A DNA stretch of 64,000 nt, from assembly GCA_030041215.1 (NCBI GenBank), contig JASHOH010000036.1:62001-126000 (forward strand), given 5' to 3'. This DNA is from Candidatus Sulfotelmatobacter sp. (GTDB lineage Bacteria; Acidobacteriota; Terriglobia; Terriglobales; Acidobacteriaceae). The position numbers and the translations under genes were made by a program. This document shows, piece after piece, positions 205 through 62,948 of this stretch. Within the stretch, counting starts at the first letter, position 1. Every line of letters starts with the position of its first letter. The notes beneath the pieces were generated by a model that was not told where the DNA came from, ran no database searches, and saw only the letters and a program-made list of their open reading frames with translations.

Positions 205-262
205 AGTTTTATGGTATCAAGGGTCATTATCAACTGCAGGTCCTGGCCGTGCTTGGTGAGGC

Positions 263-405
263 AGTAGTGGTGCAGTTTGATAAGGAGGCGAGCCAAACGC
301 ACGATTGTGGCGGCGCAAAAAACGCGCCGCATCGCGCGGCTCGCCCAGATCCTTCGCTTCGCAAAAGAGGCTTGCTCAGGATGACAAGCAAACTGTGCCA
401 CTACT
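263..405 (+). repeat. MITE-like interspersed repeat (family M), full copy
   Basis: This 143-base unit is bounded by imperfect inverted ends: AGTAGTGGTGCAG on the left and CTGTGCCACTACT on the right. The interior holds a GGCGCAAAAAACGCGCC hairpin and ends in CTCAGGATGACAAGCA. Close relatives occur at 27660-27825 and inside the RNase P RNA at 62571-62694, and a left-end fragment lies at 4907-4965. It has no coding capacity, so if mobile it must be moved in trans. Confidence 0.75.
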
Positions 406-471
406 GGAGAAGCAATAAAGTTCCCTCAGGCGCAATTTTCCCTTTATAATCGCCATCCGTCTGGGTGCTCA

Positions 472-2974: not shown

Positions 2975-3490
2975 TTAACCCGCCTTGTTCCGAATCTTTT
3001 CCTCCCACCATCTCCAATCGTTAATCCGAACCAACCCGTCCTCGCCGTACGCGTAGGACCGATAACTGCTCCACCGCCAGTCGTCGGGCTTCTCCACCAA
3101 TCCGCGGACCACCGGATTCCGGTGCATATATTTCAGCTTCTCTACCTCTTTCCGGTGACTCCACACGTTGAAGTCATAAAACCGGCGCTGCCAGAATTGC
3201 CCGGAGAAGCCGGTGGCGGCGCTCCAACGTTGTGTGAACCCGAGTTTCACCGCCTGCACAACCGTCGAAGGATTGTTGATCAGAGGCTCTGAGATCAGCA
3301 CATGCACGTGCTCGGGCATCACGACATAGCCGATGACCGCGAAGCGATATCGCTCGCGCATTACTTCCAGCGTGGCAAGCAACAGATCTCGCGCCGCTTC
3401 CGAATCGAGCAGGGGCCTGCGCCGATAACAGCTCCAGGTGATGAAGTGGAAGCCTCCGGTGCCGTAGTAGCGCTTCAGACCCCAAGGCAT
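2975..3490 (-). CDS. REP-associated tyrosine transposase (RAYT, Y1 family)
   Basis: A 171-residue Y1/IS200-like single-strand transposase. It carries the hallmark MPEHVHVLI metal-binding motif (HUH-type) at about residues 59-67 and an N-terminal FHFITW. A FWQRRFYDFNV block and a KYMHRNPV helix follow, where the nucleophilic tyrosine is expected. RAYT proteins recognise and process REP/BIME palindromes of their own genome. Here such palindromes flank the gene on both sides: one inverted copy downstream and two direct copies upstream. The length matches the family and there is no frameshift, so it may be active. Confidence 0.92.
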   Translation of the reverse strand: MPWGLKRYYGTGGFHFITWSCYRRRPLLDSEAARDLLLATLEVMRERYRFAVIGYVVMPEHVHVLISEPLINNPSTVVQAVKLGFTQRWSAATGFSGQFWQRRFYDFNVWSHRKEVEKLKYMHRNPVVRGLVEKPDDWRWSSYRSYAYGEDGLVRINDWRWWEEKIRNKAG

Positions 3491-3518: not shown

Positions 3519-3790
3519 GACGGCTGAACTGGCCCGTATTTTTCCTGGAGGGTGGGTCATTATGGGAAAGTCAAAGGCCCCACCTCCCGCGCAAAAGGCG
3601 CGCGAGAAATGGGGCACCCCGATCGGTCACACGACGAAAGCGGGCCACCCGCCCGACGGCTGAACTGGCGAGTATTTTTTCCTGGAGGGTGGGTCATTAT
3701 GGGAAAGTCAAAAGCCCCACTTCTCGCGCAAAAGGCGCGCGAGAAATGGGGCACCCTGATCAGGGCAGGCTCTGTCGCACAAAACGCGAC
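3519..3790 (+). repeat. Two tandem REP-like units (copies C and D)
   Basis: Units of about 136 bases start with GACGGCTGAACTGG at 3519 and 3655. Each contains CCTGGAGGGTGGGTCATTAT and then the TCTCGCGCAAAAGGCGCGCGA-type palindrome and GGGGCACC. The units are nearly identical apart from a few substitutions and one base, so the duplication looks recent. A degenerate relative lies at 4329-4372, after the ACT gene. Confidence 0.8.
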
Positions 3791-4436: not shown

Positions 4437-4913
4437 ATGCCGGCTTCTCCTTCTTTGTTTTCTCATCGTGAGTCCGTGGCTCCGCAACATTATTTGATTG
4501 CTTACACCGATGGTGGCGCGCGAGGAAATCCTGGGCCGGCGGGGTATGGCGTGGTCATTCAGGATGAAGCGGGAAAGAAAATCGCGGAGCTGAGTGAATA
4601 TCTCGGCCAGCAGACCAATAACTTCGCCGAATATCAAGGGCTGATCGCAGCCCTGGAATACGCTCTCGAACAGGGACATAAAGCGCTCAAGGTGATCAGC
4701 GATTCGGAACTGTTGGTGCGACAAATCAAAGGCATCTACAAGGTGAAGAACCCGACGCTGCGGGACCTCCACGCTCGCGCCAAGCAGTTAATCGCTCAAC
4801 TGGATTGGTTCTCGATTGGCCACGCACTTCGCGAACACAATCGCGACGCCGATCGTCTGGCTAACGAAGCGATGGATAAGGGAACCAGCCGTGGGGCGCG
4901 GACGGTCCGGTAG
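4437..4913 (+). CDS. rnhA: Ribonuclease HI family protein
   Basis: A 158-residue protein with the RNase H catalytic set visible: YTDGGARGNPGPAGYG (first Asp), NFAEYQGL (Glu), VISDSELL (second Asp) and HNRDADRLANEAM (final Asp). These enzymes cut the RNA strand of RNA-DNA hybrids such as R-loops and primers. Its compact form, without the basic handle of E. coli RnhA, resembles the archaeal/Bacillus YpdQ-like branch. About 15 residues precede the first strand, so an in-frame start near 4479 is an alternative. Confidence 0.9.
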   Translation: MPASPSLFSHRESVAPQHYLIAYTDGGARGNPGPAGYGVVIQDEAGKKIAELSEYLGQQTNNFAEYQGLIAALEYALEQGHKALKVISDSELLVRQIKGIYKVKNPTLRDLHARAKQLIAQLDWFSIGHALREHNRDADRLANEAMDKGTSRGARTVR

Positions 4914-4965
4914 TGGTGCAGGTTGATAAGGAAGCGAGCCAAGCGCGCATATTTTGCGGAGCAAC
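4907..4965 (+). repeat. Left-end fragment of MITE-like family M
   Basis: GTAGTGGTGCAGGTTGATAA plus GAAGCGAGCCAAGCGCG matches the left end of the full copy at 263. The rest of the element is missing, so this is a truncated copy directly after the RNase H stop. Confidence 0.6.
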
Positions 4966-27659: not shown

Positions 27660-27825
27660 ACTGTGGCAAAGCGGGTGACGGTGCGTTTTGCAAGGAAGCG
27701 GGCCAAACGCGCGTTTTTTTTTGCGTCGCAAAGGACGCGACGCATCGCGCAGCCCGCTCAGGTCCTTCACTTCGCAAAGAACGCTCGTTCAGGATGACAA
27801 GCAACCTGCAGCACTGCACGACTAA
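27660..27825 (+). repeat. MITE-like family M, diverged copy
   Basis: It contains AAGGAAGCGGGCCAAACGCG, a GCGTCGCAAAGGACGCGACGC hairpin-like centre, and TTCAGGATGACAAGCAACCT at the right. The order is the same as in the copy at 263-405. It lies upstream of purD and may carry or disrupt its promoter. Confidence 0.65.
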
Positions 27826-60286: not shown

Positions 60287-61519
<1,233 letters not shown>

Positions 61520-62160: not shown

Positions 62161-62232
62161 TTCAATTCTCGGGATTTCAAATTGAGCCACTACTACCCTG
62201 CGAAAAGCGCAAAGGGCTGGAATCCAGGTCTG

Positions 62233-62247: not shown

Positions 62248-62839
62248 GGCAGCCGGACCGGACGGTCGCTCCGCTTGTGAGAATGGGCGGGGAGGAAAGT
62301 CCGAACTCCGCAGAGCAGTGTGCCGGATAACGTCCGGGAGGGTCCCGGTTTTCTTCGGAGAACCGGATAACTCGACGGAAAGTGCCACAGAAAAGATACC
62401 GCCCCGCCCATTCTGGCGGGAGCTCGATGATTCGACGGTTCTCGCGAGAATGGGCGGGGTAAGGGTGAAAAGGTGCGGTAAGAGCGCACCGCCGCCGCAG
62501 TAATGCGGCGGGCAGGGCAAACCCCACACGGAGCAAGACCAAATAGGAAGGGACTCCCGCTGTCGCTGTGAGTGCTTGTTCAAAGGATGCGAACCAAATG
62601 CGCGATTATTGTGGCGCAAAAAACGCGCCGCCTCGCGCGGCTCGCCCAGATCCTTCGCTGCGCAAAGAACGCTTGCTCAGGATGACAAGCACTGTCAGCG
62701 ACGGCGGGGACGCGCCGGCTCGGTGCGTCACAACCTTCGGGTAGGTCGCTAGAGCCGCGCAGTAATGCGCGGCCCAGAGGAATGACCGTCACGCGGGAGC
62801 AATCCGGCAGACAGAATTCGGCTTACAGGTCCGGCTGCC
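62248..62839 (+). ncRNA. rnpB: RNase P RNA, bacterial type A, with inserted repeat
   Basis: The conserved regions are in order: GGAGGAAAGTCCGAACTC, AAGGGTGAAAAGGTGCGGTAA, GCAAACCCCACACGGAGCAA, GACCAAATAGG and GACAGAATTCGGCTTACAGG. The terminal P1 helix is evident: GGCAGCCGGACC at 62248 pairs with GGTCCGGCTGCC ending at 62839. This RNA cleaves tRNA 5' leaders. At about 590 bases it is longer than the usual 350-430, because a MITE-like element (62571-62694) caps an internal helix formed by CCCGCTGTCGCTG and CAGCGACGGCGGG. Confidence 0.93.
62571..62694 (+). repeat. MITE-like family M copy inside rnpB
   Basis: The unit is bounded by GTGCTTGT and ACAAGCAC inverted ends, and its interior (GGCGCAAAAAACGCGCC ... 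CGCCCAGATCCTTCGC ... GCTCAGGATGACAAGC) matches the copy at 263-405 almost base for base over about 90 positions. It extends a helix of the RNase P RNA and does not break its core. Confidence 0.8.
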
Positions 62840-62948
62840 AACTTTCCCGACTCCTGCCTCGCTGCGTTCAGCGGGCAGGGGCGCCCGCTCCAGCACAGGC
62901 CTCGCTACCCCCGTCACTAGCCAGAACAGCAGCTTTTATTGCCCGCGC

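Follow-up and report, generated by a model that had tools for sequence, protein, structure and literature searches.

A dispersed palindromic repeat at the tip of the accessory P16.1 hairpin in an acidobacterial RNase P RNA gene

RNase P RNA is normally an essential RNA enzyme. It serves as a model ribozyme, and discussions of it usually treat the peripheral helices as slow-evolving structure. In the window, the 64,000-nucleotide stretch of DNA analyzed here from an uncultured soil bacterium, the gene for this RNA (rnpB) contains a copy of a repeat that recurs across the genome. The original prediction described a mobile-type element sitting in an internal helix of the ribozyme. The locus raises three questions: which part of the molecule holds the repeat, to what family the stem around it belongs, and how such a gene can bear an insert of this size.

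The rnpB gene and its accessory arm

The window rnpB is 592 nt long, compared with about 400–440 nt in most relatives of the genus. Its match to the Rfam model RF00010 runs end to end over model positions 1–367 (283.4 bits against a cut-off of 100, E 1.6e-91), and all conserved RNase P blocks align to the model, as had been predicted; by both features the gene encodes a bacterial type A RNase P RNA. P6 and the loop of P17 could form the type A pseudoknot, judging by their sequence complementarity (Table 1). One rnpB match is present in the assembled contigs of the 5.03-Mb genome, which is rated 100% complete; all genomes used here are metagenome-assembled, and a second rnpB may lie on an unassembled contig. 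P3 and P12 have GAGAATGGGCGGGG in common, and P3 looks like a shortened remnant of an arm, named alpha below, which is complete in P12. The upstream gene (60287–61519) is ABC transporter permease-like; it stays next to rnpB in most members of the genus and might be used to mark the locus.

The extra sequence forms an arm between P16 and P17. This is the position of P16.1, an optional helix of type A RNAs (PMC2858038, table 3), and the host of the repeat is an accessory helix and not a conserved internal one, which corrects the internal helix first proposed. P16.1 of type A RNAs is usually short, whereas that of the window reaches 153 nt and has a dispersed repeat at its tip (PMC2858038). The closing helix predicted around the insert is present: a 13-bp base stem with one G-U pair is followed by a 2×2 internal loop and a 10-bp upper stem, above which the arm branches into hairpins. 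The 210-nt segment that includes the arm folds at −104.1 kcal/mol, with a z-score of −6.0 against shuffles.

The arm is built in two layers, a base stem restricted to rnpB below and a 105-nt unit of the dispersed family at the tip. When this unit is left out, the flanks join as CTTGTTCAAG and form a 48-nt hairpin of 20 bp with a GUUC loop. The joined hairpin resembles repeat-free arms of the same stem family (beta, described below) in P16.1 of genome G044 and P12 of genome G257, and it should be what the empty site looks like.

Table 1. Features of the rnpB locus, the dispersed repeat family and the associated transposase gene, in window coordinates
Feature	Position	Strand	Basis
Full-length dispersed copy, inverted ends AGTAGTGGTGCAGTTTG / CAAACTGTGCCACTACT	260–407	+	Profile E 1.6e-44
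REP-associated tyrosine transposase (Y1_Tnp), flanked by inverted REPs	2975–3490	−	PF01797, 40 bits
Truncated dispersed copy, left half	4907–4964	+	Profile E 2.7e-9
Dispersed copy	27671–27820	+	Profile E 7.2e-37
rnpB, bacterial type A RNase P RNA	62250–62841	+	RF00010, 283 bits; single copy found
P3, short, retains right half of alpha arm (TGAGAATGGGCGGGG)	62269–62292	+	Arm comparison
P9, 36 nt, a slight expansion from the usual 22 nt	62339–62374	+	Arm comparison
P12, expanded alpha-type arm CCCCGCCCATTCTGG..CGAGAATGGGCGGGG	62402–62459	+	Rfam match, arm comparison
P16, strands GAAGG / CCTTC	62547–62551 / 62734–62738	+	
Whole accessory arm P16.1, 153 nt	62556–62708	+	Fold, z −6.0
Base stem 5′ strand CCCGCTGTCGCTG, 13 bp, beta stem family, rnpB-restricted	62556–62568	+	Fold, stem searches
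Upper stem 5′ strand, partner 62684–62693	62571–62580	+	Fold
Inserted 105-nt unit of the dispersed REP/MITE-like family	62582–62686	+	BLAST, profile, flank joining
Base stem 3′ strand CAGCGACGGCGGG	62696–62708	+	Fold, covariation
P17, loop GCTC (62718–62721) able to pair with GAGC 62313–62316 (P6)	62709–62729	+	

The dispersed repeat and the stem beneath it

A BLAST search with positions 62560–62705 finds 22 places in the 5.03-Mb genome, and a repeat profile built without the rnpB copy scores that copy at E 4.5e-37 over 62568–62695, which bears out the proposal of a mobile-type repeat within rnpB. The best match other than itself lies in the window at 282–390 (89% identity over 109 nt, E 6.6e-35). 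This intergenic copy had been called almost identical in its interior; it is the same repeat, not a chance alignment, at an identity of only 89%. Besides the rnpB copy, the window holds three further copies. In most aligned copies, that of rnpB included, a constant unit of 102 nt extends from AGGATGCG to GGATGA, and the flanks are unlike. Several copies have inverted ends of type GTAGTGGYGCAGTTTG, absent from the rnpB copy. With regard to the terminal inverted repeats of MITEs, inverted ends of GTAGTGG type mark several dispersed copies and are missing from others and from the rnpB copy. The strands GTGCTTGT and ACAAGCAC had been taken for the element's own ends, and this applies to one side only: many dispersed copies have the same 3′ side (GATGACAAGCA) but differ at the 5′ side, where several full-length ones read GTGCAGTTTG.

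The palindromic units at 22 genome places, with their strong hairpins, conform to a REP/BIME-type family. A target-site duplication of constant length, as in MITEs, was rejected: none that is consistent was found among the aligned copies, where CAA, CATGAA, GCA and AAAT appear in single copies. The P16.1 arm holds no short tandem units of the cyanobacterial STRR kind and consists instead of a single 105-nt palindromic unit, in which no S23-type protein reading frame was found. A solitary GTAGTGG-type end of the family, with 1–2 mismatches, lies on the minus strand at 62178–62193, about 57 bases upstream of the rnpB start.

Six RAYT-type (Y1_Tnp) genes are present in the genome. The one in the window is flanked by inverted REPs at 2905–2956 and 3710–3761 (94%, beginning GGGTGCCCCATTTCTCGCGCGC), which belong to a family other than that of the rnpB repeat, and it is a candidate mobiliser of REPs. 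A near copy of this gene with similar flanks is found on another contig (C202, locus L107), with a degenerate GTAGTGG-type end of the rnpB repeat family upstream. A search for a RAYT gene flanked by the rnpB repeat family itself found none.

Could the repeat have been placed within rnpB by a repeat-induced join or a binning error? The data are metagenome-assembled and repeats often break such assemblies, but we give this explanation almost no credence. The sequences on either side of the insert form a 20-bp helix together, and the insert lies in the interior of a 132-kb contig. In addition, the divergence of the rnpB copy from its nearest copy shows that it is no collapsed duplicate, and the rnpB arms of independent genomes carry repeats of the same family.

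Two stem families, alpha and beta, recur in rnpB arms and close different interiors. Alpha (CCCGCCCATTCTGG / CGAGAATGGGCGGG) occurs at P3, P12 and P16.1, with three copies per gene in genomes G029 and G040, and beta (CCGCTGYCGYTGTGA and its complement) occurs at P12 and P16.1 in five genera. Alpha was considered as a dispersed repeat and rejected: among 45 genomes, 18 of the 20 exact matches to CGAGAATGGGCGGG fall within rnpB, and the remaining two have unrelated surroundings that lack the matching hairpin. A 36-base pattern that combines the alpha end with the conserved sequence behind P12 was found in only eight records of a collection of 84,980 species, all Terriglobales/Acidobacteriaceae. 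The outer stem of the window arm (CCCGCTGTCGCTGTGA) was found in rnpB only, apart from one match in a coding region. Its membership in the mobile repeat was likewise rejected, since rnpB accounts for three of the four exact matches to CCGCTGYCGCTGTGA in the 45 genomes and a coding region for the fourth, and looser matches are no commoner than reversed controls. When ten relatives with beta arms were searched for dispersed full arms, almost only the ~41-nt REP core proved to be dispersed outside rnpB.

By its sequence distribution, the base stem belongs to an arm family that is restricted to rnpB and separate from the mobile repeat. Versions of it with compensatory changes occur at P12 or P16.1 in relatives. 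In 12 beta stems, both partners change at six of the 13 pairs, and pairing extends to 95.5% of cells; with the partner strand shifted by 1–2 columns either way it falls to 34–37%. Because the stems were aligned by hand before counting and come from related genes, this covariation is support, not proof, and the pairing could be maintained by palindrome turnover at the DNA level instead of RNA function. The compensatory changes and the recurrence of the same stems in several genera would also fit an arm that had been co-opted, perhaps to bind a protein or another RNA, and is now under selection. We regard such co-option as improbable given that the sister genome has no arm, most relatives have a short one, and the interiors are unconserved.

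Turnover of arms among relatives

The comparison took in the helices P3, P9, P12 and P16.1 of roughly 40 rnpB genes from the genus and roughly 30 from other genera. The tree of the rnpB core carries too low a signal (2 of 38 branches well supported), and RpoB was therefore used to date the arm. In the RpoB tree the sister genome is G034 (96% identity, SH-aLRT 100), which has no arm between P16 and P17, in a comparison with related rnpB genes of the kind that the original prediction called for. In genome G041, whose rnpB core is nearest in sequence, only a short arm occupies this position. The arm therefore turns over between close relatives.

The window case is not isolated, since P3, P9, P12 and P16.1 are expanded in many relatives, several of these arms with dispersed repeats. 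The profile of the dispersed repeat matches six rnpB arms, spread over five genomes and located at P12 or P16.1, in both orientations, with E-values of 1e-36, 8e-16, 3e-11, 8e-9, 7e-7 and 7e-5; the best of 2000 shuffled arms reaches E 2.3. The matched arms take in four genomes besides that of the window and two other genera (g17 and g50). One case, G001b, is an additional rnpB from a genome whose contamination is 9%, and another species may be its source. P9 of genomes G004 and G026 contains a second family of dispersed palindromes, with 31 places in the genus and none in reversed controls. P3 of the sister genome and both P3 and P12 of G041 contain REP-like palindromes that resemble, by eye, the flanks of the window RAYT gene.

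Gene-by-gene shuffles revealed clear sharing of arm stems between helices in some genes (L042, L049, L055 and L059); in others, the window rnpB included, it was not clear. In the rnpB of G041 (L055), P3 and P12 carry a nearly identical 90-nt arm, REP included, a likeness that suggests copying between helices within the gene. The rnpB match of genome G035 (L059) is 755 nt long, with large arms at P3, P9, P12 (194 nt) and P16.1 (166 nt), and we know of no longer bacterial RNase P RNA. In genus g10, two genes (L102 of G154 and L096 of G276) have large P16–P17 or P12 regions of unrelated sequence.

The window rnpB has an intact core and carries a dispersed repeat on the end of an accessory hairpin that is restricted to rnpB; the sister genome is without this arm, and similar events have taken place at several helices and in several genera. 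The explanation that we consider likely is that the 105-nt unit was inserted at the tip of a pre-existing two-turn P16.1 hairpin and has been tolerated there, and that such tips recurrently gain and lose palindromes. The REP/MITE-like unit would have entered a host stem that is one of the few rnpB-restricted arm stems (alpha and beta) recurring at P3, P12 and P16.1, whose tips would repeatedly take up palindromic repeats and also lose them. Single-stranded DNA hairpins would probably be the route of insertion, the agent being either a RAYT-type transposase or template switching. Given its position, the arm would be transcribed within rnpB, and the insert may be tolerated because the 13 + 7 bp stem unites the flanks and directs the extra RNA away from the catalytic core.

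Arm lengths, fate of the arm and known systems

In this genus, P3, P9, P12 and P16.1 come in two sizes, short or some two helical turns in length. The P12 arms fall into 24 short ones (helix of 3–7 bp) and 13 long ones (19–23 bp, sd 1.3), none measuring between 22 and 53 nt, and nearly all of the long arms have a 1×1 mismatch at pairs 8–13. The other three helices show the same pattern, with length gaps of 38–54 nt for P3, 36–52 nt for P9 and 40–61 nt for P16.1. In most long arms the base helix measures about 18–24 bp at any arm length (54–194 nt) and is interrupted by a mismatch near pair 12; helices of 32–40 bp occur in some P3 and P16.1 arms. In the arms of 53–56 nt the helix length is partly set by the size of the arm, an effect absent from longer arms.

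Two accounts of what becomes of the arm RNA fit these data about equally well. In the first, the whole arm is transcribed and retained as an inert, outward-pointing hairpin: peripheral loops would accept any palindrome, and the stems would recur through common descent and gene conversion between helices, without function. This account, to which we assign just under an even chance, agrees with the finding that every insert is a strong hairpin at a peripheral site, with the intact conserved core, and with the sister genome, where the missing arm marks it as dispensable; the nearly identical whole arms at P3 and P12 of G041 are as expected from gene conversion. Passive retention alone, however, leaves the two-state lengths and the recurrent mismatch near pair 12 unexplained.

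The second account adds a processing step to insertion at a pre-existing hairpin. Two-turn arms at P3, P12 and P16.1 would be kept because RNase III cuts them, the tip and its repeats being removed without ligation and the fragments of RNase P RNA being held together by the remaining helices. We put this forward tentatively, as a possibility that falls somewhat short of an even chance. It would account for base helices of similar length at most arm lengths with their mismatch near pair 12, for the gap between long and short arms, and for stems that are preserved while interiors vary; a precedent is the intervening sequence (IVS) in the 23S rRNA of Coxiella, which has a 28-bp stem and is excised by RNase III (PMC4990558). 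The ~20 bp of the 53–56-nt arms is, however, partly arithmetic, and related genomes lack independence. By the same analogy, RNase III may clip the window arm, a prospect that we rate at somewhat less than even: its stem amounts to roughly two helical turns of duplex with a mismatch in the middle, an IVS-type long closing stem suited to this enzyme (13 bp, 2×2 loop, 10 bp). The product would be a nicked yet folded ribozyme. The fullest form of this idea, a transferable two-turn cassette that moves among P3, P12 and P16.1, captures REPs and is cut by RNase III to give a mature ribozyme of non-covalently joined fragments, we consider doubtful.

Several known systems resemble insertion at the tip of an existing hairpin. 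The palindromic elements of Rickettsia insert inside genes, mainly protein genes, and are tolerated through self-folding; the likeness, drawn by description, lies in palindromic repeats internal to a gene, which here is rnpB. The STRR repeats in cyanobacterial rnpB reportedly lengthen helix P12. They are known from heterocyst-forming species (Vioque 1997, cited in PMC2858038) and share with the present case a genome-dispersed repeat inside rnpB that lengthens a peripheral arm. They are described as short tandem repeats, whereas here single 105-nt palindromic units or REPs stand on the tips of two-turn stems. Unlike the STRR system as reported, the present one involves P3, P9, P12 and P16.1, shares stem families between helices, and turns over between sister species. 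The IVS of 23S rRNA likewise adds dispensable sequence to a peripheral helix of an essential RNA, has a long imperfect closing stem and varies among relatives, but its host is 23S rRNA and not rnpB, and its excision by RNase III is shown, whereas here it is conjecture. The REP/REPIN/RAYT systems offer short palindromes in tens of copies, often with GTAG-bearing ends, to set beside the RAYT-type genes of this genome; a single REP is shorter than the unit of about 102–105 nt described here (PMC3733652). REPs inside protein genes have been reported in that text, which leaves RNase P unmentioned (PMC3733652).

A literature search covering mainly open-access papers yielded none that describes repeats in the rnpB of acidobacteria. 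The cyanobacterial STRR are a known example of repeats inside this gene; the present case differs from them in the kind of repeat, the helices, the stem families shared between helices and the turnover between sister species. An arm of 150 nt separates sister species here, and several arms of a normally essential gene have acquired dispersed repeats. With repeats in several side hairpins of relatives, parts of RNase P RNA seem to be docking places for them. Such repeats can mislead annotation and assembly. They also make three questions testable: how peripheral RNA domains originate, what load an essential ribozyme can bear, and whether it can function in pieces.
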